From positions 732,501 through 796,500 of the forward strand of contig CP058732.1 of the NCBI GenBank assembly GCA_013414795.1: a DNA stretch of 64,000 nt, read 5' to 3'. The notes beneath the pieces were generated by a model, which searched no databases, was not told where the DNA came from, and saw nothing but the letters and a program-made list of their open reading frames with translations. Of the stretch, positions 16,028 to 31,911 are shown in pieces. The position numbers were made by a program, and so were the translations under genes. Within the stretch, counting starts at the first letter, position 1, and each line of letters starts with the position of its first letter. Source of the DNA: Candidatus Kapaibacterium sp. (lineage in GTDB: Bacteria > Bacteroidota > Ignavibacteria > Kapaibacteriales > UBA2268).

Positions 16028-19000
16028 CTATTTTGTTTCTTGTAAAGAATTTATAACATGAAGGTTTTCCTTTGCAATTTCGTTTTCTGGGTCGACAGCA
16101 AGAATTGCAATCAAGATACTTTTTGCTTCTTCAAACTCTCCACCCAAAGTTTTAACAATTGCAAGGTCATTTAAAGCATTAATAGCATCTTTATTCTCTT
16201 TGAGAAATTTTAAAATATTCTTTTCAGCCTCATCAATTTTTCCATTGTTCATCAATTCTTCTATGGTTTGTTTTGGATATGTTGTCGAAGCAGTTTCAAT
16301 TTCCTTTTTAAGTTCTTGCTCCCTAAACAACCCAACAACGTCATCAATCTTTGGAATATACTTTTCGTTGACAAATTTTGTAATAAGAGATGTAAGTTTA
16401 GCTTTAATGTGAGGGAAAGAGTGTAGAACAATTGCAAACATTTCGTTCGCTTGATTGGGCTGATTTTTAAACAAGAACAAAATTCCAAGATAAATGTAAA
16501 TTTCTGGAAATTCAGAAGGATTACGAAAAATTTTAGTACACTCTAACGCAGTTGCATAAGCAGATATTAAATCTTCTTTCAAAATGAAATCATTTATTTC
16601 TTCTAGAAAGAAATGTTTATATTTTCTGTAAATATTATTTTGCGAAATAATTATTTCATTTTGAAGTGAAGTTTGTCTTTGTGAACTATCATTTCTAATT
16701 GTAAACTCACAAGTAACTTTTTTAATGTGAAAAAATTTGTACTTCCTAGAAATACGAATGAGAAGATCCCAGTCCTCGAGAGCAGATGGAGAGTCACTAA
16801 AATAACCAACACTTTTAAGAGCATTTGCTTCAAATAATAAGCAATTCAAGGGAATATAGTTACCAAACAATAGTTTTGTCTTATCGAAGTCACTTGAATA
16901 CACAAGTTCCCTCGATTCTATTTGATAAAAGTCGCCCGCTTTATTCATATTTGTTCTTAATGCATCGGAGTAAACTACTTTGTATTCAGGATTATGCTCC
17001 AAAAGATCAACTAATGTCTGGAGGTGATTAGGATAAAATATGTCGTCATCGTCAAGAAATGCAATGTATTTCCCTCTTGCATTATCAATTCCAATATCTC
17101 TGCCCTTCTCAACGCTATTTTCTTTGTTTACAATGTAGCGGATTCGTTGGTCATTAAACAAATTGATAATGTTAGAAACATCCTCGCCAGCATTGTTTAT
17201 TACAATTAGTTCGAAATTTTTATAAGTTTGATGTAGAACACTTTGAATCGCTCTGAGGAGAAATTTTGGTCTATTGTAAGTTATAGTTATTATTGAAACT
17301 AAAGGCTGGGTTGAGCCAATCGGCTTGGTTTGCGGTTTTTTAAATTTTTGTACAAATTCATCTGGTATAATCCAGGGAATTATTTCTAATTGATTCGGAA
17401 TATTCCTTGCATCATTGTTTCCCTTCAAAACCTCTTTAGCCCAAATAATATGATTTTCAGAATAAAAATTGGGGTGGTTCAAAATAATTTGTGATTTAAT
17501 TTCAATATCTTTCTTAACAGCAGTTGTTTGCCGACTGGCATTCCTTATTCTATATAAAAACAATGGTTCTGGAATTCTTGTCCCTGTAAATCCTTTTTGG
17601 ACCGAGCCTATCCAAAAATCCCAATCTTCATACCCCAATACCATATTCGGATTATATCCACCAACTTCTTCCCAAACTTCTCTTCTCATCAAAGAACAGT
17701 AATTCAAATGATTTTGGTAAGGTAATGTCAAGGGATCCCAATTTTTGGCTTGAACCAAATTATTTCTTTCGCCAAATTCTTGTAAATCAGTATAAACAAT
17801 GAAAAAATATGGATATTCATCCAATATTCTTACCGTTTTCTCCAAAAATGTCGGGTGAAGCATATCGTCAGCATCCAAAGGCAAGATATATTTACCTTTT
17901 GAATGTTGGTTTCCATAATTTCTTGCTTTTGCAACTCCTTCATTCTTCTTATGTAGATAAACTATTCTTCTTGTTGGATACCTTGAAATCAAGTCAAAAG
18001 CAACTTGTTTAGTGTCATCAGTGCTTCCATCGTCAACGATTATACATTCCCAGTCTTGAAATGTTTGATTAACAACGCTTTCAACTGCGTCACCAAGATA
18101 TTGTGCAAGATTGTAACAGGTAACAACAACAGAGACTTTTGGTACTTTCGTGTCGGTGGGCTTTACAAAATCTATATCAACCTCCTGGTGGCAAGCATTC
18201 GGAACAAATCCATCCAATTTATCAATATCAAATCTAAATCCTTGTTCAAACAAATTTGCCAAATTTTCAGGGGCATACTTCTGGTCGACCGAAGCACGAT
18301 TTTGCCACATTGTTTGAACAAGGTTCAATGGTGCAGAAAAAGCAACAGATTGTTCATAGCACAACAAAATGGGCTTGGTGTTCTTAAAAACAGCCTTGTT
18401 TTGATCCAAAACTGATTCAAAAGTATTTGGGTTTTTATATTCCAGATTTGTCAACAATGGTAGTAAATCTTTTGTCCTATAAATAGAACTGGAAACTTCA
18501 ATTGGATAACCAAAATCATATTCTGAAAGTGTCCAGTTAAATTTTAAAACCCTTTCGTTGATTCTTTCAAATTTTGGTAATCTTTGAAACTTATCCATTG
18601 GATGACAATAAATTGCATTAACGCCTAGCCTCAAAGAAAAGCCAATTGAATCTTGATATTTTTCTAACAGCTCGATAATTTGATTAATACTGAATTCCCT
18701 TACAAAAATGGTATCATCAACAACAAAAAGAATGTATGGAAAACGTTGAACAGAAGCAACCAAATCATTTTTGAAGTCTTTTTCTTTAACAAAGTTTACG
18801 TCTGAATATTCTTCTATAAGTTTTTGATAAAGTTTTTCATATCTTGTATTTGATGTTTTATAAAGCACTTCAATATGCACATTTTGCAGGTCTTTGCAAT
18901 ATTTCTTAAACGACCGAATAGTCGCTTCCAACTGCATTGGTCTATCTTTGCTAAAGATGTAACTGATTGTATTTTGAGAATTCTGTCTATTGACTCGGAT

Positions 19001-21034
19001 ATAACTATTTTGTACCATTTTAATTTTTTTCAAATGACTTAATATTTCGTTGATAATATATTCAGGATCAGTCTTCAAAAGGATTAACCCTTTTTCATAA
19101 TTTTGAACCCTTTCAGGCATAGCCCCAACATTGAAAACTGCAACTGGAAGGCCCATTTGAACTGCCTCTTCTGCTGTATAGGAAAATGTCTCGGGCCAAA
19201 GAGAAGGTAACAATATAATATCAATTTCATTTTCTTCCATTAAATCCGAGATTTCATATTTTTTATATTCACCATGAAAAACGAATTTACTATTTTCCCT
19301 ATAATCTTTACCAAAAAATTTAATATCACCAAAAAGGTGAATTTTAATATCCAAGCCTTTTTGGGTAATATAATCCAGGAGATTGAAGACCACGATATTT
19401 CCTTTGTGTAAGGAAATATTTCCCAAAACTGCAATATTAACCGTCTGTGACGTTTTTATAATATTGACTTTTCTAACCCAATCTACTTTATGAGGTTTTA
19501 TTACGATTTTGTTACTTGGGATTTTGGGAAAAGCCTTTAAAAGCAAATCTTTTGAACTATTTGAAAATACAATAATTTGGGAAACGCATTCGAAAAATTG
19601 AAAGAACTTTTCTCGCCAAAAAGTTATCTTCAAATTGGGATAATTGTATTTAATTATCGGATTAAAAAACATTAATAACCCATTTGTATCTAAACAATTT
19701 TGGCATTTTATAAGGTCATCGGGGATATTACAAAAAAGGTTATTTTTATCGAAATTACCCATAAGAGTATATATTGGACAAACTGCAAAATAATCGTGCA
19801 AGAAGTAATAATATTCAATTTTTTTTTGTAGTTCTTTTTTTAATAATATTAAAAAATCAATAATACTCAATACAAAAGGATAAGTAACTAATTCGTTAAT
19901 AATTATTTTTTTAACATCCAAGAAATCTACTAAGTTCTGAATTTCATAAAAGCTATCCGTATAAAAGTCGATTTTGTTGAGATTGTTAGAAATAAATTCA
20001 AATTTAAACTTTTGTTGTTTATCGATATAACGAACAAATATGGTTAACCCGTCTTTTAAAACAAGTGTTTTAGAGAATTCATTGGCACCACCTCCCCAAC
20101 TATGGTCAATAATGATTTGTGAATCACGATAAGTCGAAAGTATTTTCGCTTTTAGTAATTCCCTGATTTGTTGTAACGGATCCGATTTTACAAATCTTTC
20201 AACAAGATGTAAGTATTCTGGGTGTAATATCTGCAATATTTGAAGATTCCTTTGAAGTAACTTTTGTTTTTCTTGATTCGTAAAAGAGCCACCGTGCTTA
20301 TGATAGACAAAAAGATTGGTTACAATAATATTCTTATATCCCAACTTCATTGCTCGCATACACCAATCGTTTTCTTCCCCATATCCCTTTCCAAATATCT
20401 CATTAAATAACCCAATTTTATCGTAAACTTCTTTATTGAAAGCCATACAAAAACCAACCCCGGTTGGTATTTCAACGAAATTATCATCAAAGTCGACTGT
20501 TTGAAAATATTTATCCAAAGTTTCAACATCGAGCCCCAAATACAACTCATTATCCTCGTTAAAATTTGGGAAACTACAAATCGTACCAGCATTTGTAAAA
20601 GGTGTTGTGCTCGCAATTTTGGGATATTTTAAAATTGGGTATACCAATCTTTGCAACCAATCGGGAGGGACTTCTGTATCTGTATTTAATATCACAAAAT
20701 GATTCTGAACTAAACCTGCTGCTTTATTAACACTTTTGATAAATCCTATGTTTTCCTCATTTTCAATCAAAAGCAACGAACTTTTTTCAAATCTTTTTTT
20801 AAACTGGCGTAAGAATGATTTAACCCTTTCGTCCGTGCTCTTATCGTCAATAAGTATCAAACGGTAGGGAATTGTTGTGTTTTTAACCAAGCTTTCCAGA
20901 CACTTTTGGAGAAATTCATAACCATTATAAATTGGTATAATTATGTCTATTGGCTTTTGAATTGGAATATTAATTACCTTCGAATCCCTATGAAAAGAAA
21001 GACCAAGAACTTTTAACTTTTCATTTATTTCCAT
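16028..21034 (-). CDS. Giant five-module glycosyltransferase with C-terminal TPR
   Basis: A 1668-aa cytoplasmic protein without signal peptide. Modules read from the sequence: GT2 at ~30-250 (IIIPIYNGYEF, NTDTEVPPDW); GT4/GT-B at ~300-670 (HSWGGGANE, AVLGNISLHKGN, PSLWPETFSYTAEEAVQMG); a GT-A-like domain at ~690-900 (SYIFSKDRPMQLEATIRSF, FVVDDT); GT2 at ~965-1165 (VSVVVTCYNLAQYL, LPLDADDM); GT2 at ~1245-1450 (VSIITITYNRPKFL, FLDDDD); then TPR helices to the end. Such enzymes build glycans in one polypeptide. The start ATG overlaps the end of an FkbM remnant by 14 nt. Its position downstream of flagellin genes suggests flagellin O-glycosylation; this is inference. Confidence 0.88.
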   Translation of the reverse strand: MEINEKLKVLGLSFHRDSKVINIPIQKPIDIIIPIYNGYEFLQKCLESLVKNTTIPYRLILIDDKSTDERVKSFLRQFKKRFEKSSLLLIENEENIGFIKSVNKAAGLVQNHFVILNTDTEVPPDWLQRLVYPILKYPKIASTTPFTNAGTICSFPNFNEDNELYLGLDVETLDKYFQTVDFDDNFVEIPTGVGFCMAFNKEVYDKIGLFNEIFGKGYGEENDWCMRAMKLGYKNIIVTNLFVYHKHGGSFTNQEKQKLLQRNLQILQILHPEYLHLVERFVKSDPLQQIRELLKAKILSTYRDSQIIIDHSWGGGANEFSKTLVLKDGLTIFVRYIDKQQKFKFEFISNNLNKIDFYTDSFYEIQNLVDFLDVKKIIINELVTYPFVLSIIDFLILLKKELQKKIEYYYFLHDYFAVCPIYTLMGNFDKNNLFCNIPDDLIKCQNCLDTNGLLMFFNPIIKYNYPNLKITFWREKFFQFFECVSQIIVFSNSSKDLLLKAFPKIPSNKIVIKPHKVDWVRKVNIIKTSQTVNIAVLGNISLHKGNIVVFNLLDYITQKGLDIKIHLFGDIKFFGKDYRENSKFVFHGEYKKYEISDLMEENEIDIILLPSLWPETFSYTAEEAVQMGLPVAVFNVGAMPERVQNYEKGLILLKTDPEYIINEILSHLKKIKMVQNSYIRVNRQNSQNTISYIFSKDRPMQLEATIRSFKKYCKDLQNVHIEVLYKTSNTRYEKLYQKLIEEYSDVNFVKEKDFKNDLVASVQRFPYILFVVDDTIFVREFSINQIIELLEKYQDSIGFSLRLGVNAIYCHPMDKFQRLPKFERINERVLKFNWTLSEYDFGYPIEVSSSIYRTKDLLPLLTNLEYKNPNTFESVLDQNKAVFKNTKPILLCYEQSVAFSAPLNLVQTMWQNRASVDQKYAPENLANLFEQGFRFDIDKLDGFVPNACHQEVDIDFVKPTDTKVPKVSVVVTCYNLAQYLGDAVESVVNQTFQDWECIIVDDGSTDDTKQVAFDLISRYPTRRIVYLHKKNEGVAKARNYGNQHSKGKYILPLDADDMLHPTFLEKTVRILDEYPYFFIVYTDLQEFGERNNLVQAKNWDPLTLPYQNHLNYCSLMRREVWEEVGGYNPNMVLGYEDWDFWIGSVQKGFTGTRIPEPLFLYRIRNASRQTTAVKKDIEIKSQIILNHPNFYSENHIIWAKEVLKGNNDARNIPNQLEIIPWIIPDEFVQKFKKPQTKPIGSTQPLVSIITITYNRPKFLLRAIQSVLHQTYKNFELIVINNAGEDVSNIINLFNDQRIRYIVNKENSVEKGRDIGIDNARGKYIAFLDDDDIFYPNHLQTLVDLLEHNPEYKVVYSDALRTNMNKAGDFYQIESRELVYSSDFDKTKLLFGNYIPLNCLLFEANALKSVGYFSDSPSALEDWDLLIRISRKYKFFHIKKVTCEFTIRNDSSQRQTSLQNEIIISQNNIYRKYKHFFLEEINDFILKEDLISAYATALECTKIFRNPSEFPEIYIYLGILFLFKNQPNQANEMFAIVLHSFPHIKAKLTSLITKFVNEKYIPKIDDVVGLFREQELKKEIETASTTYPKQTIEELMNNGKIDEAEKNILKFLKENKDAINALNDLAIVKTLGGEFEEAKSILIAILAVDPENEIAKENLHVINSLQETK

Positions 21035-21254
21035 AAGAATCCAATAAATTTTTGGCTAACTTTGGACAAATTGCTAAATAGTTTGAATAATTATAATTTT
21101 CTAAACTATCTTTCCAATATCTCAGATAAATCAATCCATCGGGAACAATTCTAAACATTTCATAACCATACATTTTCAACAAATCCCAAATACCTTTAAG
21201 TGTTGTTCCACTATCAATGAAAGTTCCACCATATTCAAATTGAATAATATTGAT
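21021..21254 (-). pseudogene. C-terminal remnant of an FkbM-family methyltransferase
   Basis: Between the two glycosyltransferase genes a minus frame of 77 codons has no start codon at its beginning, yet reads as an FkbM-type C-terminus: QFEYGGTFIDSGTTLKG, then YGYEMFRIVPDGLIYL, then LENYNYSNYLAI. Full-length FkbM enzymes are about 200-280 aa, so the SAM-binding part is gone. Its first codons overlap the last codons of the 470-aa GT2 gene in another frame (+1), and its stop overlaps the ATG of the 1668-aa gene. The simplest reading is an internal deletion that joined the GT2 gene to the tail of a methyltransferase gene. Confidence 0.75.
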
Positions 21255-22647
21255 TTAATATTTCGGTATACTCCAGATACTCCAAAGTTGGTATTTTTAA
21301 AGCAAGCGTGTGTAACGTCTCAAAAAATTCTCCGGGGTTTTTCAATACTTTCTCAAGGTTGTCATTAATCTTCTCGTTTACTTTAAATGTAAAATGAGCA
21401 AAATTAATCGGGAAAACTGAGGATGATGGCAATTCAAATGGATTGCAAATTCTTCTAGAAAATTCATAAAACCTACTTTGGCTTTGCTTGACATAGAAGT
21501 AAGCAGATGGAAGAATATCAATGTTGGAGTAATCTGATAACAATCTACTAAGATAATTTAAATGATTTGGAAAAATTTTGTTAGAATCGTTAAAAATAGA
21601 AAGATAATTTCCTTTTATTTTAGAAACTCCAAATTTAATAGCCTCTTCCAACGAAACATTAGAATCAACTTGATAAAACTCAATTCTCCTATCAAATTTG
21701 TAAAATTTTTGTAAATAATCATTACCGTATGTACTCAAAAAGATAATCTCCAAATTCTTATTATATTGATTTAAAATAGAATTAATGGTTTCAAGGGTTT
21801 TGTCGCTTTTATGGGAAGAAAAAATTATAAAGGAAAATTCCGGATTTTGAATCTTAACTGAACTAAAATCGATAAAAGTTTTAAAATCTACAATACCTGG
21901 ATAAAATGCTTGAAGACCTAACTTATTGAATTTCTTCTGATAAGAAAACCTAAGTTTTCTAGTTTCATTTGCAGCCAGTTCAGAATTATAATTTCCAATA
22001 CCCTTAGGGTTCCAATAGTACAATCCAAGCAACAATGGTATATGCTTGAAAAGACAATTTTCTGAAATTCGCAACCACCATTCCAAATCTCCGGCAACCC
22101 TATAACTTTCATCAAAATAACCGAATTTTGAATGTAAAGACTTCCGCCACATTGGGGAATGGCCAATATAGGTAACGTATAAAAGATGTTGCTTATCAAA
22201 ATAAGGGTATATAGTATAACCACTTGGAGTGCAATTTTCAAAAGTCTGGTTTTCAACTTCTGTAATAATATAATTGCAATAAACAAGATCGACCTCGGGT
22301 GATTCTTCCAACTCATTTGCTAGTATTTCCATACCCATTGGATGATGTCTGTCATCTGTATTTGCATTGGTAATAAACTTTCCATTTGCATTCTTAATTC
22401 CTATATTCCAAGCAGCATATAAGGGAATACGATTTGGTGTTCTTATATATTTTATTTTATTTGGAAATTTATTTCTATATTCCTCGACAACAATTTTTTC
22501 ATTTTGCTGGGAGCCAGCATCCACTACAATTATTTCTAACAAATTTTTTTTGAATAATGTTTGATTTGTAAGATTTTCTAAACGACCTCTAATGAATTTC
22601 TCTGAATTATATGTTGAAACAATAGCGGTGACAAGAAATTCTTCCAT
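21235..22647 (-). CDS. GT2 glycosyltransferase, two GT-A-like domains
   Basis: A 470-aa protein. The first domain (~5-230) is a standard GT2: VTAIVSTYNSEKFI, IIVVDAGSQ, ITNANTDDRHHP (the DxD-like metal site NTDD) and DLEWWLRISE. The second (~265-400) is a shorter, more divergent GT-A-like region (FSFIIFSSHKSDKTLETINS, LSIFNDSNKIFP). It starts 6 nt after the stop of the 1310-aa gene and is probably in the same operon. Donor and acceptor sugars are unknown. The 3' end abuts the FkbM remnant, so the original C-terminus may have been changed by that deletion. Confidence 0.85.
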   Translation of the reverse strand: MEEFLVTAIVSTYNSEKFIRGRLENLTNQTLFKKNLLEIIVVDAGSQQNEKIVVEEYRNKFPNKIKYIRTPNRIPLYAAWNIGIKNANGKFITNANTDDRHHPMGMEILANELEESPEVDLVYCNYIITEVENQTFENCTPSGYTIYPYFDKQHLLYVTYIGHSPMWRKSLHSKFGYFDESYRVAGDLEWWLRISENCLFKHIPLLLGLYYWNPKGIGNYNSELAANETRKLRFSYQKKFNKLGLQAFYPGIVDFKTFIDFSSVKIQNPEFSFIIFSSHKSDKTLETINSILNQYNKNLEIIFLSTYGNDYLQKFYKFDRRIEFYQVDSNVSLEEAIKFGVSKIKGNYLSIFNDSNKIFPNHLNYLSRLLSDYSNIDILPSAYFYVKQSQSRFYEFSRRICNPFELPSSSVFPINFAHFTFKVNEKINDNLEKVLKNPGEFFETLHTLALKIPTLEYLEYTEILNQYYSI

Positions 22648-22653
22648 CTGTTT

Positions 22654-25600
22654 TCAAATTTTTTTCCACAAATCCATAAGGATTTTTAACTTTAATTTCC
22701 AAAGTTCCAGTATCCTTCGCCCATTTCTAGTCTTAAACCTAAGGTTTTCATAATCCTGAATTATCTTCTCTAATTGGCTTCCAGTAATTTTTAAACCGCT
22801 TTTACTTACTAACTCAATAAAACTAACATTTATAGAGTTTCCAAAAGAATCAGAAGAAAATTCATTAACCCTACCCAAAAAATCGTTATAATATCTAACC
22901 AAGTCATAACCTTCTTTCATATACCTATCCATATTTCGACCTGTCTTGGATTCTGGTTGTAATCTAAAAACTGCTAACGGACAATCTAAAGTACAAAGAT
23001 TAGAATTTAAGTAAAAACGTATCCAAAGCTCAAGATCAGATGCCATCGAATATCTAGTACTTACATAACCTCCCGCTTTCTCCCACAAGCTTCTTTTCCA
23101 AAACGTTAATTCTTGTTGAATAAATGGACTATGAAATTTTCCATCTAAAATTTTACTTAGTGAGTACTCTTTCTTTCCCCAGTCAATATCTAAATATAAA
23201 TCTTGTGAAAGGGTCGCAATTTCTCTAGTTGTGACCCAATCGTATTCAGGAAATGCTAGGAAAAACTCTGCAACAAAATAAAAAGCCCCGGGCAGATAGA
23301 AATCGTCTGCATTTAACCAAGCAAGAATCTCGCCGGTTGACCTTTCAAAACCTTTGTTGATTGCATCATATTGCCCATTGTCTTTTTCGCTTACCCAATA
23401 CTTAAAATACCTTTCATATTTTCTAATTATTTCTACGCTATTATCCTTGCTTCCACCATCAATAATTATATATTCTAAATTAGGATAATTTTGATTGACA
23501 ACGCTTCTTATGGCATTCTCAATATATTTTCCTTGATTTAAATTGGGAGTAACAATAGAAATTTTAGGATATTCTTTATTAAAATACTTTAGAAAATTAA
23601 TATTCTTAACCTTATTTTCAAATTTAAAAAAGGCTGGAAAAAATTTAAAGATAATATAATTACTTTCCCCAAGCAAAGAATTTAAAAATGGATAATCCTT
23701 ATCATTTAGAACCAGATTATCAAAAGACATTTTTGAAATTATTTTAGAAGATTTTAAAAAACCAATTTTTTCAAGGAGGCTATCAATTTGTTCCCCTTCT
23801 TGGATTGGTAGGTCTACGAATAAGTAGCAATCTTCAATTTCAAAATCGAATAATGATTTTACAAATTCAGAATTAATCTTCTTTATTTCATCAAATGTTA
23901 AAACCAAAAAAATTGTTTTACTTTTTCCCAAATTTCTTAACTTTTCCAAGTTATCAACGCCAATTTCAAGTACAGTCTCATTTTGATCCAACCAATTAAA
24001 GATTTTCTTTGAAGTAAAATCAATGAGAACAAACTTAAAATTAAAAATTTTTGGTAATTCAGTAATAAAAACATTCTCCTTGGTAGTGACCAAGATAATA
24101 TTTGTCAAATTAATTCCTAGTGTGAAACAAAATCTTATGATAAGAAGCTTTAAAAATTCCCTTTTTTCAACCGATTGAAATTTAATAAACTTATTCAAAT
24201 AAGATTGATCTAATCCAATAAAATTGATTAAATGAAGATGATTAAGAAGAAAAATGCTAGGTTCTATAGATTCTATAAATTTTTCAAATTTGGACACAAT
24301 GTCGCCATCAAATCTATTTAAATCCCCAACGCTTTTTCCATTTAAAAGATTTAAATAGAGATTTGCATAATTTATACTTTGTGCCAACTCATTAAATTTC
24401 CTTTGTGCGTTGTAAGAAAATTCTATTGATTCTTCATCAGTAAAATTAGAGCAATACTCAATTCCTTTTATAATATCATCAATCTCGAAAGGTTTGGCAA
24501 GCCATCCGTTTACTTGGTGTTCAACAATATCACTCAAACCACCTATGTTAAATGCAACGACCGGAGTGCCACAACAAATTGATTCAATAGCAGTATTAGG
24601 GAGATTGTCTTCCAAGGATAATGACAAAAAAACATCAGCCGCGGAATATAACATTGCAAGAACTATTTGATTTCCAACGTAACCAAGAGGCTTAACTGGA
24701 ACGTTACTTTCAATTCTTTCATTTGATATATTTCCAAAAATGTATAATTCTACTTCTTTTCCATTAATAGACCGAGGAATTTTTTTCAATAAATCTTTTA
24801 GCAAGTGGTAACCTTTTCTATATGTTTGATATTCTGCCCCTGATAAAATAATAAATTTATTTTGGGGGAATTTTAAATACTCCCTAACATTGAATTTTTC
24901 ATATTTATGGAAAATACCAATTGGAATACCATTATAAATGTTTAACGCCGGTTTGTTCATTAAAAGAAAACTTTTGTTTACATTTTCAAGCAACCATTTG
25001 CTTGGCGCTACAATGGTGAGGTCTAAATCCTTAAGAAAATTGTACTTCGTTGTAAATTGATAATAACTTAAATCATTGTCAAAATTTGAACCAAGTTGAG
25101 GACAGGCTTTACAAATGTATTGATACTTTGTACATCCAGATGAATAATGGCATCCGCCAGTATAAGCATTTTCATCGTGCAAAGTCCATACAATTTTTTT
25201 CCCTTGGAAAATTTCAAAATCTTCTCTAAAATCAATCATCGAAGAAATCCAATGAAAATTAATTATATCAGCATTTTTAATGAATTGATTATCTTTTAAA
25301 TCAGTTATGCTACTAACAGAAGAGAAAAATTCAAAATGATTTGGTCTATTTGGATAATTTTTCATTAAAATACCATACCAATTAGAAGTGAAATCTTCCC
25401 ATTTCCAATTTAAAGCAAAAGGTTTTTTCTTTGCTTCATAAATTTCTGGATAATTAGTGCTTTTGAAAACGGTCAGCATTTTGCTATTAACTCCAATTCG
25501 AAGCAATCCTAAATGTAGCCTAAGTGCCGCTAACCCAGCACCATGAGTATCCCAAACAGACAAATGAACAACTTTGAGATTATTCAAATTGGAATAATCA

Positions 25601-26586
25601 GTTAGGTTTTTCGAGCTAGAAATTCGAATTTTTAACTTTTCTTCATCAATAACAATAGCTGGTTTTTGGGCTTCCATAAATAATGAATCTGGCTTTCGAA
25701 CAGAGCCATCTGGATTAATATCTAAAAAATACGAATTAAAGTTAGGAATTTTGGAATATTTTGCATCTACTTTTTCAATATTAATAAAACCGGCTTCTTC
25801 AAGTAATTTTCCCAAAGAATATCTATCATACATCCAAAGATGAATTTCACCCGAAAGCCTAAACCTTCCAAGTTCGGTTGGATCGGAAATAGCCTGATAA
25901 GGTCTATTTCTATACTCTTCTGGGGAAATCGTCTGTTTCGCTTTTCTTATGTTCTCTATTGTCGATTTTGCTTCGCTTCCAAGTCTTTTAAGAACAAAAT
26001 CTTCTAACGGCATTGGGTATTGTTTCCAATATTCTAACATTTCGCCGCCAGATTTATCCCGAACCATTTGGTCGAACAGTTCAATCAAAATCCAATCATA
26101 CTTCAATTTTGCTTCTTCATTACCTAGTAAAGCACCTTCAAGTGATTCTAAATATATTCTTACAATTTGTTCAAGGTCTGGAACAACGACTCTTATGATT
26201 CCACCCGGTTTCAAAACTCTATAACATTCTTTTAAAAAGAGTGGCGCAAATCTTTTGGGAAAATGTTCGAGTAAATGAGAATGGTAGACTACATCGAAAG
26301 ATTCATTCTCAAATGGTATTCCATTAATTAAATTATACGCAATTACGTGTTCACCAGTTTTATGAAAGTCAACATTAACCCAAGAAGGATGATAATGATA
26401 TCCACATCCGAGGTTCAATAATTTCATACCTTCACCTGTTTTGCACTCTTCAAATGTGAAAATTCTCCGAAGAATTTCCACTTTTTCGTCTTCATTTCTT
26501 TCCAGCATTAGTCTATTTAAGAAACTTTTTGCCTCTTCGAATTTGCTACTTTTGATTAATTCCAAAAATTCTAATATTTCTTTCAT
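22654..26586 (-). CDS. Giant methyltransferase-GT4-GT2 fusion protein
   Basis: A 1310-aa cytoplasmic protein. Residues ~50-310 are a class I SAM methyltransferase (LLNLGCGYHYHPSWVNVD, SFDVVYHSHLLEHF, CYRVLKPGGIIRVVVPD). Residues ~335-780 are a GT4/GT-B glycosyltransferase (VWDTHGAGLAALRL, LHDENAYTGGCHYSSGC, LEDNLPNTAIESICCGTPVV). Residues ~790-1000 form a region not recognised. Residues ~1005-1215 are a GT2 domain (ISIVTPNLNQGKYI, ILAWLNADDFYLPG). The C-terminal 60 residues are basic and helical. It lies 9 nt after a second methyltransferase gene and 6 nt before the next GT2 gene. Combining sugar methylation with two transferases suggests synthesis of a methylated glycan. Confidence 0.87.
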   Translation of the reverse strand: MKEILEFLELIKSSKFEEAKSFLNRLMLERNEDEKVEILRRIFTFEECKTGEGMKLLNLGCGYHYHPSWVNVDFHKTGEHVIAYNLINGIPFENESFDVVYHSHLLEHFPKRFAPLFLKECYRVLKPGGIIRVVVPDLEQIVRIYLESLEGALLGNEEAKLKYDWILIELFDQMVRDKSGGEMLEYWKQYPMPLEDFVLKRLGSEAKSTIENIRKAKQTISPEEYRNRPYQAISDPTELGRFRLSGEIHLWMYDRYSLGKLLEEAGFINIEKVDAKYSKIPNFNSYFLDINPDGSVRKPDSLFMEAQKPAIVIDEEKLKIRISSSKNLTDYSNLNNLKVVHLSVWDTHGAGLAALRLHLGLLRIGVNSKMLTVFKSTNYPEIYEAKKKPFALNWKWEDFTSNWYGILMKNYPNRPNHFEFFSSVSSITDLKDNQFIKNADIINFHWISSMIDFREDFEIFQGKKIVWTLHDENAYTGGCHYSSGCTKYQYICKACPQLGSNFDNDLSYYQFTTKYNFLKDLDLTIVAPSKWLLENVNKSFLLMNKPALNIYNGIPIGIFHKYEKFNVREYLKFPQNKFIILSGAEYQTYRKGYHLLKDLLKKIPRSINGKEVELYIFGNISNERIESNVPVKPLGYVGNQIVLAMLYSAADVFLSLSLEDNLPNTAIESICCGTPVVAFNIGGLSDIVEHQVNGWLAKPFEIDDIIKGIEYCSNFTDEESIEFSYNAQRKFNELAQSINYANLYLNLLNGKSVGDLNRFDGDIVSKFEKFIESIEPSIFLLNHLHLINFIGLDQSYLNKFIKFQSVEKREFLKLLIIRFCFTLGINLTNIILVTTKENVFITELPKIFNFKFVLIDFTSKKIFNWLDQNETVLEIGVDNLEKLRNLGKSKTIFLVLTFDEIKKINSEFVKSLFDFEIEDCYLFVDLPIQEGEQIDSLLEKIGFLKSSKIISKMSFDNLVLNDKDYPFLNSLLGESNYIIFKFFPAFFKFENKVKNINFLKYFNKEYPKISIVTPNLNQGKYIENAIRSVVNQNYPNLEYIIIDGGSKDNSVEIIRKYERYFKYWVSEKDNGQYDAINKGFERSTGEILAWLNADDFYLPGAFYFVAEFFLAFPEYDWVTTREIATLSQDLYLDIDWGKKEYSLSKILDGKFHSPFIQQELTFWKRSLWEKAGGYVSTRYSMASDLELWIRFYLNSNLCTLDCPLAVFRLQPESKTGRNMDRYMKEGYDLVRYYNDFLGRVNEFSSDSFGNSINVSFIELVSKSGLKITGSQLEKIIQDYENLRFKTRNGRRILELWKLKLKILMDLWKKI

Positions 26587-26595
26587 CTCATTCCG

Positions 26596-27462
26596 CTATG
26601 AAATTTTTTGAAAAATTGCAATCATCGTGTGACCTTTTATTTTATCGGGATATTTATCAACTATTTCTTTAAAATATTCAAAAACAAAAGGGTTGTTATA
26701 ATATTGATTTATTAAACTTAAAAAGTAGTCCTTGTGATAGTTTTGCAATGGTTCAAACTTCAATTCAATTAATTTCAGATTAAATATTTTTTCAAAGGAA
26801 TAAAAGACATCGGGAGTCCAACGTGTTTGATGATGGGGAGGCAAATCCAATAAATTAAACTTGTCTAATGAAATAAATGAATCTTGATTTGGAACACTAA
26901 TTATTATTTTGCCATGCTTTTTTAAAACTTTTAGGGAACTAATTATTGAATCTTTCAAATTTGGTAAATGTTCGAAAAGTTGGAATCCGCAAACATAATC
27001 ATAAAATTCCGGTTTTACCAAAGAATGTTGCTCAATGGTCTGGTTTAAAATTTTAAAATTATCACCAGTTTCATTATATTGCTCGTTTATTTCTAAACCA
27101 ACAGCCAAACAAGACTTTTGGGTGATTCTCTTTAAAAAATAACCCTTACCACAACCTAATTCTAAAACTTTCGAACCAGGCGTTATCCAATCGTAAGCAA
27201 CTTGATGTTCCCACTTTGATTCAATATAATACCAGTCAAATTTACTTAGACTTTTGTAAAATTCACCATCCCCTACAATATTTCTGGGATAGAAAAACAT
27301 TAAGCCAGAATCTGGACATTTACATAAATAAACTATTCGAATACCATCAAAAAATTTTTCGACATCAACTCCGAGTTGAGTTCTATATCCATTGATGATG
27401 TCTTTAGCCAGAAATTGGTTCACAATTGCAGACTTTTTTCCAGTTATTGGGCTTTCGAACAT
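26596..27462 (-). CDS. Class I SAM-dependent methyltransferase
   Basis: A 288-aa protein of the Methyltransf_23 type. An N-terminal segment with two Cys (VYLCKCPDSGLMFFYP) looks like the small zinc-ribbon-like part found in such sugar methyltransferases. The SAM site is VLELGCGKGYFLKRI (motif I), GLEINEQY (acidic motif II) and FEHLPNLKDS, with LKKHGKIIISVPNQ at post-motif III. It is the first gene of the glycosylation run, 9 nt upstream of the 1310-aa gene. The acceptor is probably a nucleotide- or lipid-linked sugar. The ribosome site is weak. Confidence 0.85.
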   Translation of the reverse strand: MFESPITGKKSAIVNQFLAKDIINGYRTQLGVDVEKFFDGIRIVYLCKCPDSGLMFFYPRNIVGDGEFYKSLSKFDWYYIESKWEHQVAYDWITPGSKVLELGCGKGYFLKRITQKSCLAVGLEINEQYNETGDNFKILNQTIEQHSLVKPEFYDYVCGFQLFEHLPNLKDSIISSLKVLKKHGKIIISVPNQDSFISLDKFNLLDLPPHHQTRWTPDVFYSFEKIFNLKLIELKFEPLQNYHKDYFLSLINQYYNNPFVFEYFKEIVDKYPDKIKGHTMIAIFQKIS

Positions 27463-27767
27463 TTTTAGGGTATTTTAACAAAAAACATAAAAAAACTAAC
27501 TTTTCACACTTCCAATATATTATACTCTAATTACCTCAAACTGTTCAAATAAAATGATATTTTATACAGAATAAAAATTCTCTGAAAATATTCTTTTGTA
27601 AACCAAATAAGTTTTTGTTTAGTATAATTAATTCTTCCAAAAAGTTTATCGCCTTCAATACAGATTTCACCAACGCTATCAAGATTTGTTTTTGTAAATG
27701 CTTCCATTATTGAACTAAAATGGGAAAACAAAAACAAGAGAGTTGCAAAAGTTATGCCAATGGAATG
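27463..27767. other. 305-bp gap between flgM and the glycosylation genes
   Basis: AT-rich. A minus frame at 27531-27707 could encode 59 aa (MEAFTKTNLDSVGEICIEG onward), but it has no ribosome site and no recognised family; it may be a gene remnant. The stretch may also hold the leader of the 26596-27462 gene. No clear terminator or promoter was seen. Confidence 0.3.
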
Positions 27768-28022
27768 TTAGGATTTAAATTTTTGGTAGATTTTTTCGGC
27801 TGTACTTTTCAAAATCGTTTCTTGATTATAAAACCCAGATTCGATTTTTCCTTTTATCTCCTGCATTCGGCGGGCTTCGTTGGAGATTTGAAGTTTATCG
27901 GGGATGTCGGTGGGTTTGGATTTATTTGTATCCTTTACATTTTGATTTGGTTTCGACAAGGTTGGTTGTTGCTGGGAAATATTGGATACTTTACTACTAA
28001 TGTTAATATTCTTTATGTTCAT
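27768..28022 (-). CDS. flgM: FlgM, anti-sigma-28 factor
   Basis: An 84-aa protein. The C-terminal half matches FlgM: DKLQISNEARRMQEIKGKI followed by SGFYNQETILKSTAEKI. FlgM binds sigma-28 (FliA) and blocks late flagellar genes until the hook is finished, when it is exported. The first ~40 residues are Asn/Ser/Gln-rich and disordered, as usual. The ATG overlaps the stop of the preceding chaperone-like gene by 4 nt. The sigma-28 promoter before flagellin in this locus is its expected target. Confidence 0.85.
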   Translation of the reverse strand: MNIKNINISSKVSNISQQQPTLSKPNQNVKDTNKSKPTDIPDKLQISNEARRMQEIKGKIESGFYNQETILKSTAEKIYQKFKS

Positions 28023-28390
28023 AGTTCACCTTTCATATATATCATCAATCGTTTCTGTTTATTTAAATCTTTCACTTTTTCACTTTGCAATTTCATACTT
28101 TTTTCGATAATATCCAAATTTATTTTTTCTTGTTCCAAAATTTTCTTTATTCTATTTAACCATTTGTTATGATTATTGCGAAAGTATAACTCGAGCGAGC
28201 TTATACTTGGTAACTTTTCAAATTCTTTGAAAAATGGATCCCTTTTGTCAAGGATTTCTTGTACTTTTTCGATCTTATCCGAATACTCTCCTTCGGAAGT
28301 AAGTAATTGGTACAATTCCGAAGTTGATTTTTCAATCTCTGTAATTACCTTTTCAACAAATTCTGGGCTATACTTTTGCGTTTGCAACAT
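28019..28390 (-). CDS. FliT/FlgN-like flagellar export chaperone (probable)
   Basis: A 123-aa all-helical protein without membrane segments. No strict motif is visible, but size, helical character (EFVEKVITEIEKSTSELYQ, RIKKILEQEKINLDIIEKSM) and position between flaG/fliD and flgM fit a FliT- or FlgN-type chaperone, which guards FliD or hook-junction proteins before export. It overlaps flaG by 23 nt and flgM by 4 nt, so the three are translated as a unit. Assignment rests mainly on context. Confidence 0.55.
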   Translation of the reverse strand: MLQTQKYSPEFVEKVITEIEKSTSELYQLLTSEGEYSDKIEKVQEILDKRDPFFKEFEKLPSISSLELYFRNNHNKWLNRIKKILEQEKINLDIIEKSMKLQSEKVKDLNKQKRLMIYMKGEL

Positions 28391-28784
28391 TTTTATCCTC
28401 GAGTGTTGATGCTATGTAACGAGCGATTTTCAAGGCAACTTCGGGCGGTATCTGTTGCACAACTTCCTTGGTTTGTGCATTAATCAATTTAAATATCATC
28501 TTTTTTGTTTGGTCGTCACGAGTAAATTGAATCATTAAATTCTCGTCGTTTATTATTTCTTCCAATCGTTTTGCTATTTTATCATAATCAATTGTTTTGG
28601 TTTGTTTTTTAGTATCTTCTTGGCTAATATTCTTCACAAAATTGTTGAAATTTGCCAATCCTCTTTCAACATTCTTTTCTTTCCTTTGATTCTCATTTAT
28701 AGGATTGGCAATTTGTGAAGTTCTAAAATCACCAAAATTTGTTTGCATTTCGTTTACTGGGGGACCTTCAATTGGATTTATCAT
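28368..28784 (-). CDS. flaG: FlaG family flagellar protein
   Basis: A 138-aa protein. The C-terminal ~70 residues match FlaG: LMIQFTRDDQTKKMIFKLI then NAQTKEVVQQIPPEVALKIA, the family hallmark being the QIPPE motif. FlaG proteins sit next to fliD and influence filament length, but their mechanism is not settled. The N-terminal half is polar and probably disordered. A strong GGGGAGG ribosome site precedes the ATG. It starts 18 nt after the fliD stop. Confidence 0.85.
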   Translation of the reverse strand: MINPIEGPPVNEMQTNFGDFRTSQIANPINENQRKEKNVERGLANFNNFVKNISQEDTKKQTKTIDYDKIAKRLEEIINDENLMIQFTRDDQTKKMIFKLINAQTKEVVQQIPPEVALKIARYIASTLEDKNVANAKV

Positions 28785-28802
28785 ATTTACCTCCCCTTAA
28801 CC

Positions 28803-30272
28803 TCAATAACGGTAATAGTTCGTTAAAAATATATTCGCAGTGTTCGAGAATGTGTTATATTGAGATTGTGCCTTCAAGTATGCCTCCAAGCTTCGAAAAT
28901 AATCATTTTTGTAATTCTCTGCTTGAATTTCAATTTTAGTTTCGAGCTCGGTAATTCTTTTCTGCATCTCATAAATTTGCTGTCGTACCAAGTTCGTTTT
29001 GTTTGTTAAATAATTGGTATCGCCAGAAAGAAGACCTGTAACGTTTTGTAGTTTTCTTACAAAACTATCGCTGGAAGTAAACAAGTCGGCTACTTTTGTA
29101 TAATCGGAAGCCAACGCTTCTTTAAGTTTTGTAAGATCAGAAATAGAAAGCGTCCCATCCGTATTTGTTTTAATACCAATTTCGTTCAAAAATTGGGGAT
29201 TTCCAGTTTGGGCAGATGTAATTGCTTGCGAAGGTATTACACGCAAATTAGAAATCAAATTTCTAAGCAATGGTTCATCACGGAGTAAACTTTTATTGCT
29301 GTTCAAAAATTGCAAAAGGTCATTATAAGCATTGACCAATGGAGTAAGCAAGTTTTGAACAGCATTTGTATCTACTTCGGTAGTTAATGTTACAGGTTGT
29401 GCACTGGCTTCTTGCGTCTTAAGTAAATTAAGGGTTACACCTTGAAGTACGTCAGAAATTGTATTCGAGCCTCTAACTACAATGATACCATTAACTTCAA
29501 TTTCGGAATCAAGTTGAGAAACATCAGCAATCTTGAAATGTGCATATTGGTTACCACTATTTATTGGTGTTCTAATGCTTGCGTTAGGATCGACATTATC
29601 AAATCCAAGGGCATTAAGAACTCCGCTTCCATTATCATCAAATTTAATATTATTATCTGAACCAGTGTTCTTTGAAGTAATTGTAAGTCTTACAGTAGAA
29701 TTAGTGTCTTTAATTACAGAAGCAGTAGCATTTACATCGGAAGTGTTATTTATTGCCTTTGCAATAAGTTTCAACGCATCTTCATTGCTTGTGTTTGGGT
29801 CAATCGAAACAGAAACGTCCTTGCCATTAATTTTAAATGTGAGATTTGAACCAGTAACAGCAAAATTTTGTGAAGCAGTCAATTGAGCCGAAATCAACAA
29901 ATCATTGGAGGCAAGCCGATTTACCTTCACGGTGTTAACTCCAAGTAGGGCTTCCCCCGTAGCAGTTGCAGTAACAATAGATGAGTCTGATGAATTAACC
30001 CGCCTAGTAACAAAAAACGATGATGCACCAGTAGCTGTAAATTTATCGATTTGAGACATTAAAGTACTGACCTTCGAACGCAAAGAGGAAAAGAAACTAC
30101 TCTTTTTTTCTAAAGTGCTTTTGCGGTCTTTAAGTTGATTTAATTTTCCAGATTGGGTTCTTTTGTATGCTTCAACCAACAAATCGGCTTGCGATTGGCT
30201 TGCCGAGTTGGTTTGCATCAAAGAGCTCAAAGCATTACTTAAAGAATCCAAACTAGAAGTTAAATCTGCCAT
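28803..30272 (-). CDS. fliD: Flagellar filament cap protein FliD (HAP2)
   Basis: A 489-aa protein that caps the filament and inserts flagellin monomers. The N-terminal coiled-coil region (residues ~1-80, with KLNQLKDRKSTLEKKSSFFSS cut short here as KLNQLKDRKSTLEKK) precedes FliD_N (TVKVNRLASNDLLISAQL). FliD_C follows from ~260 (ALASDYTKVADLFTSSDSFV) and ends in a coiled coil (LVRQQIYEMQKRITELETKI) with the usual hydrophobic C-terminus. The length fits the family. Ser/Thr/Asn-rich central strands could be glycosylated, though this is a guess. It lies 11 nt after fliS. Confidence 0.93.
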   Translation of the reverse strand: MADLTSSLDSLSNALSSLMQTNSASQSQADLLVEAYKRTQSGKLNQLKDRKSTLEKKSSFFSSLRSKVSTLMSQIDKFTATGASSFFVTRRVNSSDSSIVTATATGEALLGVNTVKVNRLASNDLLISAQLTASQNFAVTGSNLTFKINGKDVSVSIDPNTSNEDALKLIAKAINNTSDVNATASVIKDTNSTVRLTITSKNTGSDNNIKFDDNGSGVLNALGFDNVDPNASIRTPINSGNQYAHFKIADVSQLDSEIEVNGIIVVRGSNTISDVLQGVTLNLLKTQEASAQPVTLTTEVDTNAVQNLLTPLVNAYNDLLQFLNSNKSLLRDEPLLRNLISNLRVIPSQAITSAQTGNPQFLNEIGIKTNTDGTLSISDLTKLKEALASDYTKVADLFTSSDSFVRKLQNVTGLLSGDTNYLTNKTNLVRQQIYEMQKRITELETKIEIQAENYKNDYFRSLEAYLKAQSQYNTFSNTANIFLTNYYRY

Positions 30273-30283
30273 AATTCAACCTT

Positions 30284-30640
30284 TCACTTTTCAATTTCAA
30301 ATGCTTGGTTCCAAGCATTTCGAAGTTCTTGAATGATAAATATTGCATCATCGTATCTTTTTTGAAATACAAGTCTTTGCACATATTCGTATAGTCTATA
30401 AAGGCGAGTTGCTGTCTCTTCATAATCGAAATTAAGTGAAGCCATCAATTCGGCAAGGACGCGATTCATTTTGCTTATGTCTTTCTTCTTGGCGCTTACG
30501 ATAAATAAGTCGTACATTTTCAAAATTACTTTTTCCCTGGACCAAGAAAGAACCTCTTGTTCAAGATATTGAGGAATGCCTCCATCTTTCTTTATTCCAT
30601 AAGCCTTTGCTATCGCTGGATTTTGAACTGTTGTTGCCAT
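30284..30640 (-). CDS. fliS: Flagellar secretion chaperone FliS
   Basis: A 118-aa helical protein that binds the C-terminus of flagellin to prevent early polymerisation. Typical features are the start YLEQEVLSWSREKVILKMYD, then LAELMASLNFDYEETATRLY and RLVFQKRYDDAIFIIQEL. Position between flagellin and fliD is standard. The gap to flagellin carries a hairpin, so part of fliS transcription may be read-through from the flagellin promoter. Confidence 0.93.
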   Translation of the reverse strand: MATTVQNPAIAKAYGIKKDGGIPQYLEQEVLSWSREKVILKMYDLFIVSAKKKDISKMNRVLAELMASLNFDYEETATRLYRLYEYVQRLVFQKRYDDAIFIIQELRNAWNQAFEIEK

Positions 30641-30689
30641 TTTTCACCAATCAATTAAATAAATATTTACCTCAAATTTTATACCAATA

Positions 30690-30721
30690 CCGAAGGGAAC
30701 CCTTCCTGGGCGTCCCTTCGG
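30690..30721 (-). terminator. Hairpin after flagellin, probable partial terminator
   Basis: A 9-bp inverted repeat (CCGAAGGGA at 30690-30698, 14-nt loop, TCCCTTCGG at 30713-30721). On the minus strand the following sequence is only moderately T-rich (TATTGGTATAAAATTT), so it may let some transcripts continue into fliS-fliD. Such hairpins after flagellin genes help give flagellin a higher dose. Confidence 0.55.
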
Positions 30722-30770
30722 CTGGTTTTATGAACTTTTCCTGGTAATATCTTCATACTAGCCTAGGCTA

Positions 30771-31727
30771 TTACCTAAAAAGTTGCAAGAACGCTTGCGG
30801 TTGTTGATTTGCCTGTGTCAAGGAAATCAACGATGCCTGCAGCAAGAATTGTTGTTTAATCAATTCAAGTTGCTCTTGTGCAACGTCAGCATCCTCGATT
30901 CGGGAAATCGCAGCATTGTAGTTTGTAATCTGAGACTTCAACAATTCCTCGTGCGAACTAATTCTGTTTTGGATACCACCGAGATACGCAGCAACTTTAT
31001 TAACATTATCGATAGCCATTGCTAAGCTTGTCAACGTGGTGGCAATCACTGAAGTTGCAAAGATACCAAGGTTAGATTCGGAAACAGAGTTTAAACTTTC
31101 CAAGTCCAACCCACTAACACCAGCAAAATTTGTAGCGTGTCCTGCTGGGGAAGTTGCCCCAGAAATAGCATTCAAGTTGAAATTATTCGAAGCAACATTG
31201 AAGTCGGTATTACCAGTGGTAAGGTCGACACCAATTGAAAGTATAGTGTTATCAGCAAAGAAACCAATAGCCCATGTACCCGAGTAATTTCCCCAAAGGA
31301 GTTGCTTTCCACCGAACACAGTGGAGTCCACAACGAATTGGATTTGTTGAGCCAATCGATAGGATGCTTTTGCAAGAGCAACTTTTTCGGCAGTGCCCAA
31401 TGCACCAGTAGATGCCTGAGCAGCAGCATCTTTAATTTGGGTAAGCAAGTTTGTAATGTTGTCGAGAGCGTCTTGTGCTATCGAAGTAACATTCATTGCT
31501 TCGCCAGCGGCTAGCAACGCTTTCTTCAAAGCACCATTTCTTGCTTGCAAAGCGCGCGAAGTAATATAGCCAGCGACGTCGTCCGCAGCGGTGTTGATTC
31601 TTTTGCCAGTCGATAATCTCAACTGACGCAGAGCAATGTTGTTGCTCGCAGCCTGCAACGCATTATATACGTTTTCGGCAGGTGTGTTGGTTCGTATCCT
31701 CGAACCTTGTGCAATTGCTGTTGGCAT
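30771..31727 (-). CDS. fliC: Flagellin
   Basis: A 318-aa filament subunit. The N-terminal D0/D1 region is clear (NVYNALQAASNNIALRQLRL, then STGKRINTAADDVAGYI), as is the C-terminal one (SRIEDADVAQEQLELIKQ, then ASLISLTQANQQPQAFLQLF). The centre (~residues 140-215) is short, so outer domains D2/D3 are almost absent and surface Ser/Thr/Asn residues in that section would be the likely glycosylation sites. A GGGAGGT ribosome site and a sigma-28 promoter lie upstream. It is the only flagellin in this window. Confidence 0.96.
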   Translation of the reverse strand: MPTAIAQGSRIRTNTPAENVYNALQAASNNIALRQLRLSTGKRINTAADDVAGYITSRALQARNGALKKALLAAGEAMNVTSIAQDALDNITNLLTQIKDAAAQASTGALGTAEKVALAKASYRLAQQIQFVVDSTVFGGKQLLWGNYSGTWAIGFFADNTILSIGVDLTTGNTDFNVASNNFNLNAISGATSPAGHATNFAGVSGLDLESLNSVSESNLGIFATSVIATTLTSLAMAIDNVNKVAAYLGGIQNRISSHEELLKSQITNYNAAISRIEDADVAQEQLELIKQQFLLQASLISLTQANQQPQAFLQLFR

Positions 31728-31805
31728 AGTGTACCTCCCTGTTATAAATTAATAATAAACATTAGGGCATCCTGCCGAACACTATTTATTCCTAATTCAA
31801 TTCAA

Positions 31806-31832
31806 TTATCGACACATCATGCAAAAACTTTA
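31806..31832 (-). promoter_or_regulatory. Sigma-28 (FliA) promoter for flagellin
   Basis: On the minus strand TAAA (31829-31832), a 15-nt spacer and GTCGATAA (31806-31813) match the sigma-28 consensus TAAA-N15-GCCGATAA with one change. It lies ~80 nt before the flagellin ATG. Confidence 0.85.
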
Positions 31833-31885: not shown

Positions 31886-31911
31886 TTTCTTTTAAATTTT
31901 CAATTTTGTCA

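Follow-up and report, generated by a model that had tools for sequence, protein, structure and literature searches.

A hypervariable glycosyltransferase and methyltransferase island behind the flagellin genes of a Kapaibacterium genome probably decorates the flagellar filament

The methyltransferase (MT) and glycosyltransferase (GT) genes that follow flagellin in a genome of Candidatus Kapaibacterium sp. probably decorate the flagellar filament, judging from their sequences and surroundings. We analyzed a stretch of 64,000 nucleotides (the window), positions 732501-796500 of a single-contig 2.66 Mb genome, and estimate a probability of about 80% that the locus is a flagellin glycosylation island, hypervariable in content, whose enzymes work in the cytoplasm. 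A first-pass annotation had already proposed such an island. This reading is favored by a constant slot with variable content, by cross-phylum proximity of the core enzyme to flagellin-like genes relative to a control, by low GC, and by precedents, but it is tempered by nine strong matches to the largest enzyme that lie outside the flagellin locus.

All genes of the locus are on the minus strand, in the order flagellin, fliS, fliD, flaG, a flgN-like gene, and a flgM-like gene, followed by an MT, a 1310-aa MT-GT4-GT2 protein, a GT2 protein, and a 1668-aa protein. Flagellin (318 aa; 30771-31727), the presumed glycosylation target, matched PF00669 and PF00700 above cut-off, as did fliS (30284-30640; PF02561), fliD (28803-30272; PF07195 and PF02465), and flaG (28368-28784; PF03646) with their own profiles. 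The flgM-like gene for a putative anti-sigma-28 factor (84 aa; 27768-28022) scored 16.5 bits with PF04316, below the cut-off of 25, and therefore owes its name mainly to conserved gene order. With flgM sub-threshold, ORF places, sizes, and Pfam matches agree with the genes of the first-pass annotation, which had overlooked the 123-aa flgN-like ORF (28019-28390). We named this ORF by its position between flaG and flgM; it had no FlgN match in Pfam, and its place in the order is kept in the genus and in most other loci. Beyond the 3' end of the 1668-aa gene lie convergent TMEM260-like, QueD-type, and QueF-type genes. The TMEM260-like gene (PF11028; 14186-16027, plus strand) is the right-hand border of the island, and a profile match to it sits beside the island in four of four sister genomes.

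Several features of the surroundings were recorded in passing. An LpxC-FabZ fusion (31906-33315, plus strand; NCBIfam PRK13188 above cut-off) is divergent from flagellin. Five proteins in the window (757-2346, 6831-9269, 9491-10678, 10803-12254, and 44483-47371) carry Por_Secre_tail, the C-terminal sorting domain of type IX secretion, one of them just under its cut-off. A second flagellin of 311 aa (L145; G000:C1:2202194-2202607) is 63% identical to the first, and no GT2/GT4 profile match was found in the surrounding 17 kb of sequence.

Flagellin is preceded by a sigma-28-like promoter, TAAAGTTT-N11-GTCGATAA (31806-31832, minus strand), which agrees in 15 of 16 letters with what we take to be the sigma-28 consensus and whose upstream end coincides with the end coordinate of the first-pass annotation. 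The site is present in all five genomes of the genus (14-15 of 16 letters in the four sisters); among 400 random 300-base stretches, one scored 15 and two scored 13. The 306-base gap between flgM and the first island gene holds no such site, its best score of 11/16 being ordinary background, and we do not favor sigma-28 control of the GT genes. In the same gap we found no terminator-like site and 5 sigma-70-like matches, compared with 1.4 in shuffles (both strands). Hence, read-through and a promoter of the island's own are both possible, and the island may be expressed separately. The GT/MT stretch (16028-27462) is low in GC, at 30.9%; the window without 16028-31727 has 37.8%, and seven stretches elsewhere in this genome have 36.0-38.3%.

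Only GT and MT modules were recognized in the island enzymes. The first gene encodes a SAM-dependent MT (288 aa; 26596-27462, minus strand; PF13489, 51.2 bits) and is followed, on the same strand, by those for the 1310-aa MT-GT4-GT2 protein (22654-26586; Pfam) and a 470-aa GT2 protein (21235-22647; PF00535). No NCBIfam equivalog scored above cut-off for the island enzymes; the domain model TIGR04440 alone matched, on the 1668-aa protein. In a simple hydropathy scan, the TMEM260-like protein had 63 windows above 1.6 and the two giants had 5 and 6, compared with 0 in each of the two smaller island proteins (288 and 470 aa).

The 1668-aa protein (16028-21034, minus strand) had been described as a five-module glycosyltransferase, and this description holds: Pfam sees four GT modules (GT2, GT4, GT2, and GT2) and a weak TPR, and the fifth module has a confidently predicted GT-A-like fold. 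From the N terminus, module 1 is a GT2 (residues 25-260; 20255-20962; profile and phmmer/HMMER matches), module 2 is a GT4 region (about residues 301-680, Pfam core 534-670; 18995-20134; PF00534 and PF13692), module 3 is the GT-A-like module that we call U690 (residues 685-960; 18155-18982), module 4 is GT2b (residues 956-1225; 17360-18169), and module 5 is GT2c (residues 1239-1475; 16610-17320; Pfam and sister-genome comparison). The C-terminal TPR (residues 1560-1668; 16031-16357; TPR_19, 26.3 bits) puts GT and TPR in one chain, and in a model of residues 685-1668 (pLDDT 85.4, pTM 0.46) three GT-A-like domains are followed by an all-helical C terminus, the relative placement of the domains being unsure given the pTM. 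Solved GT2 structures match both GT2 domains of this model. Sequence matches of GT2b in the PDB include the solved GT domain of GmaR (E 1.4e-5), with many other GT2 structures matching better. Acidic DxD-type motifs, which are nucleotide-sugar motifs, are visible by eye in each GT2 module. Other giant ORFs were seen in passing: a 1677-aa GT2-GT4-GT4 ORF of the window genome (L144:9371-14401, plus strand; G000:C1 about 1165370-1170400), away from flagellin and similar to a 1687-aa ORF in sister genome G004 (L148), and, in a flagellated relative (G021), one of 3744 aa (L221:1497-12728, minus strand) in which profiles detected nine GT/MT matches, away from FliD.

We regard U690 as a candidate new glycosyltransferase family. 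This module (here about residues 685-960) had no meaningful Pfam match, no PDB sequence-profile match at E up to 1, and, among PHROGs, nothing beyond one match at E 0.021. AlphaFold2 predicted a GT-A-like fold (pLDDT 91.4, pTM 0.90), for which Foldseek returned 273 matches at E up to 0.001, mostly glycosyltransferases among the matches listed. The best solved structures are of GT13 type (GnT-I and POMGnT1), which share the GT-A fold: GnT-I (1foa) aligned with Z 15.1 at 3.6 A over 200 residues with 12% identity, and 5ggi with Z 14.0. Because generic GT2 structures follow closely (Z 13.2) and there is no sequence match, kinship between U690 and GT13 is unproven; closeness of fold to GnT-I among the matches listed, at 12% identity or less and with no PDB sequence match, was insufficient to place U690 in GT13. 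A V-D-D at 88-90 is invariant in 23 of 23 aligned sequences, the 22 relatives being 40-58% identical, and U690 also occurs as a stand-alone protein of 283 aa in Paenibacillus (L133).

To describe variation within the genus, we used five genomes, G000 (the window genome) to G004. The slot between flgM and the TMEM260-like gene, contiguous in the window, G002, and G004 and lying across contig ends in G001 and G003, holds GT and MT genes in all five, often with sugar genes. In the sisters it further contains genes of the kinds expected for modified sugars: aminotransferase, WbqC, formyltransferase, epimerase, oxidoreductase, and acyl-transferase types. GT and sugar-modification genes are thus inserted in a flagellin locus, and their makeup differs from genome to genome. 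The G003 slot carries an MT, a hexapeptide transferase, a GFO/IDH/MocA oxidoreductase, WbqC, a DegT aminotransferase, and a double MT, then GT4-GT2 and GT2-GT2-GT2-TPR. That of G004 has GFO/IDH/MocA, ATP-grasp, HAD, epimerase, DegT aminotransferase, and asparagine-synthase-like genes, then GT-MT, MT-GT4-GT2, and GT2-GT2-GT2-TPR. G002 has GT2-GT2-TPR (617 aa), a formyltransferase, and an MT, together with genes that look fucosyltransferase-56-like and DegT aminotransferase-like by their sequence starts. In G001, one contig carries an epimerase, an RGP-like gene, an FkbM MT, and GT2-GT4-U690-GT2, and GT2-TPR lies on a second. A guess from ORF sizes that the sisters carry legionaminic or pseudaminic acid genes was dropped, Pfam having given other sugar genes instead (WbqC, DegT aminotransferase, fucosyltransferase-56-like, formyltransferase, epimerase, ATP-grasp, and asparagine-synthase-like).

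Island content therefore differs between close relatives while the flagellar genes stay conserved, with the slots of G001 and G003 broken by contig ends. Identity to the sisters is 91-95% for flagellin, 81-95% for FliS, 66-79% for FliD, and 64-70% for TMEM260. GT2b and the TPR are the only modules found in all four sisters, GT2b at 52-58% identity and the TPR at 49-52% in three and 29% over 73 aa in G002 (73-79 aa aligned); other island modules are mostly absent or below 60%. In a 42-row tree, the five GT2b sequences form one clade with support 98/93, and, given this single clade at such identities, GT2b looks inherited within the genus and fast evolving. The 288-, 1310-, and 470-aa proteins match G003 and G004 at 41-56%, and the first 690 residues and U690 of the 1668-aa protein match G001 only (55-58%). 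In both G003 and G004, the core protein begins with a counterpart of the 470-aa GT2, and a larger ORF ends with one of the 288-aa MT (47-50% identity). As these two proteins are separate here and fused in two sisters, the suggestion that domain order fixes the order of sugars finds no support.

We then asked where the core enzyme lies in other phyla. From a scan of named genomes we took the best 80 of 274 loci, in 10 of which profiles detected a flagellar gene (one, L060, belonging to the genus mate G002). The core set comprised 35 loci with a match above 150 bits to residues 600-1480 (L093 included), in 34 genomes, and the control set 42 loci without a strong core match, of which 41 were searched, in 38 genomes (L063 left out); three loci of the own genus were left out of the comparison. 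PF00669, which covers flagellin and also FlgL, was found in 31/34 core and 20/38 control genomes. A PF00669 gene lay within 25 kb of the match in 13/34 core genomes and in 1/38 control genomes (G183, about 20 kb; Fisher p 1.6e-4), and within 15 kb in 10/34 and 0/38, respectively (Fisher p 2.4e-4), where the near cases are not independent and the sets were divided after the matches had been seen. Restricted to flagellated genomes, the test gave p 0.004, and random placement of one position per genome predicted about 1.05 (25 kb) and 0.63 (15 kb) near cases. The 13 comprise six Planctomycetota (four Brocadia), two Verrucomicrobiota, two Thermodesulfobacteriota, and one each of Nitrospirota, Ignavibacteriota, and Acidobacteriota; the nearby PF00669 gene may be FlgL in four of the 13, and for some Brocadia FlgL may be the nearest one. 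A further core (G135) lies 25,053 bases from a PF00669 gene, outside the 25-kb count. The remaining 21 of the 34 other-phylum core genomes, many of them fragmented, have no flagellin-like gene within 25 kb. Giants of Brocadia and Kuenenia that adjoin the core include relatives of the 1310-aa protein (44-45% identity).

We suggest the following mechanism. The sigma-28-type promoter would transcribe flagellin, and the island enzymes would act afterwards or at the same time in the cytoplasm. The 1668-aa enzyme may recognize unfolded flagellin via its C-terminal TPR, and GT2b would attach the first sugar to Ser/Thr. Extending and methylating the chain before export would fall to the remaining GT-A, GT2, and GT4 modules together with the 470-aa and 1310-aa proteins. 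We infer flagellin as the acceptor and, by analogy with GmaR, FlmG, and FgtA, TPR docking, the GT2b starter, and growth and methylation of the sugar chain in the cytoplasm.

A route like that of GmaR and FgtA is, on the gene content, our best reading over one through Maf with sialic-acid-like sugars. We set aside this NulO/Maf route because NeuB (PF03102) had no match in the genome, which is 97.65% complete, while the control matched in 9/14; the searches with Maf profiles are weakly informative, PF01973 having no match in the genome and a control match in archaea only, and PF20157 matching nowhere, controls included. The same results weigh on an unlikely alternative, in which flagellin is modified but a Maf-type or unlinked transferase starts the chain and the island only extends it. 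There is precedent for islands that only extend a chain begun by a separate enzyme: Aeromonas Fgi-1 is reported to add sugars onto a pseudaminic-acid link.

A flagellin glycosylation island was also to be weighed against a surface-polysaccharide cluster (O-antigen, capsule, or S-layer glycan) that merely adjoins the flagellin operon in this genus, and here other genera of the order bear on the matter. FliD was found in 76/123 genomes of the order, and we examined FliD neighborhoods in 60 of the 71 FliD-positive genomes outside the genus. With home-made GT2/GT4 profiles, which were seeded from the window and may miss distant families, no match followed FliD in any of the 36 loci with 10 kb or more after it or of the 47 with 5 kb or more. 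When the 1668-aa protein was searched against 60 genomes, its own included (best 8 candidates scored per genome), 14 matched with E values of 2.3e-40 or lower, and the next best stood at 4.6e-28. The first-pass annotation had held that the same enzymes in non-flagellated relatives would speak against the island; strong matches occurred in 0/12 genomes without FliD (four of the 12 being negatives not listed individually) versus 14/48 with FliD. Nine of the 14 are flagellated genomes outside the genus, and in these the match is not in the flagellin locus (in G035 it is 80 kb away on the same contig). These nine cases weaken any claim that this enzyme type is always linked to flagellin.

Such giants elsewhere in flagellated relatives favor the polysaccharide cluster, as do the adjoining TMEM260-like gene, which is of protein O-mannosyltransferase type, and the GT2-GT4 half at the N terminus of the 1668-aa protein, whose relatives among the best 80 of 274 loci are mostly in genomes or loci without flagellin. 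Against it, the core lies near flagellin-like genes in six phyla far more often than the control does, none of the island ORFs matched a flippase, polymerase, or ligase in Pfam, and the slot changes its content while the flagellar genes stay. We consider a polysaccharide cluster quite improbable. Recent decay, with the giants as non-functional leftovers of a horizontally acquired cluster, would fit the low GC and patchy distribution but is very hard to reconcile with frames of 1668 and 1310 aa that are open throughout, the acidic motifs in each GT2 module, and GT2b kept in 5/5 genomes.

If the locus is a flagellin glycosylation island, it extends such islands to Ignavibacteria. The locus also exposes a GT-A-like domain outside Pfam coverage and offers a natural set of fused and split GT modules, useful for asking whether joining in one chain orders sugar addition. 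Within one genus, the presumed filament glycan genes change and flagellin hardly does, a pattern that might be expected if phages or surfaces select on the filament. A wider proposal, which we put forward tentatively and think may well prove wrong, is that the block of U690, GT2, and GT2, often with a TPR, represents a hitherto undescribed family of modular glycan synthases devoted to flagellin and spread over at least six phyla, anammox Planctomycetota among them. Such enzymes would retain the starter while the rest of the modules undergo shuffling, fusion, and splitting, and species with near-identical flagellins would thereby gain a new filament glycan. In open-licence PMC full text, we found no paper on Ignavibacteria, flagellin, and glycosyltransferase together; among the matches listed in open-licence PMC, nothing related to Brocadia flagellin glycosylation appeared, and no title on giant or multidomain glycosyltransferases concerned flagellin.

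The kind of system is known; the lineage is new to it, and the modular enzyme with its shuffled parts is unusual. Comparable gene sets in flagellin glycosylation islands have been described for Enterobacteriaceae (PMC4875605), Pseudomonas (PMC11833859, PMC3927599), and Aeromonas. The enterobacterial islands (De Maayer and Cowan 2016, PMC4875605) resemble ours, taken across the genus, as low-GC, highly strain-variable inserts in a flagellin locus with GTs that carry MT domains, DegT aminotransferases, and formyltransferases. They lie between fliC and fliA, and many have GT41, whereas the island in Ignavibacteria follows flgM and joins as many as five GT modules to a TPR in a single chain. FgtA/PA1091, CD0240-CD0244 (PMC11833859), and fgt1/fgt2 with the viosamine island (PMC3927599) likewise combine a GT2 starter near flagellin with an MT in the cluster; in these systems, too, parts fused in one species are separate genes in another, and distal sugars vary around a conserved starter, as we propose here. 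In PAO1, a pa1091 mutant has nonglycosylated flagellin, and pa1088-1090 mutants keep the core (PMC11833859); PA1091 itself is described as a GT2 fused with a phosphotransferase, unlike the GT and MT modules recognized here. The Listeria flagellin GlcNAc transferase GmaR acts in the cytoplasm and, like the 1668-aa protein, has a GT2 domain and then a TPR in one chain, but it is given as 637 aa with a single GT domain plus an antirepressor domain (PMC9638930). FlmG of Caulobacter, a cytoplasmic flagellin O-glycosyltransferase whose TPR binds flagellins experimentally (PMC7591256), also joins TPR and GT; as described there, its TPR is N-terminal, its single GT is of GT-B type, and its donor is pseudaminic acid, whereas the Kapaibacterium enzyme has a C-terminal TPR and GT2 (GT-A) modules in a genome with no NeuB match.
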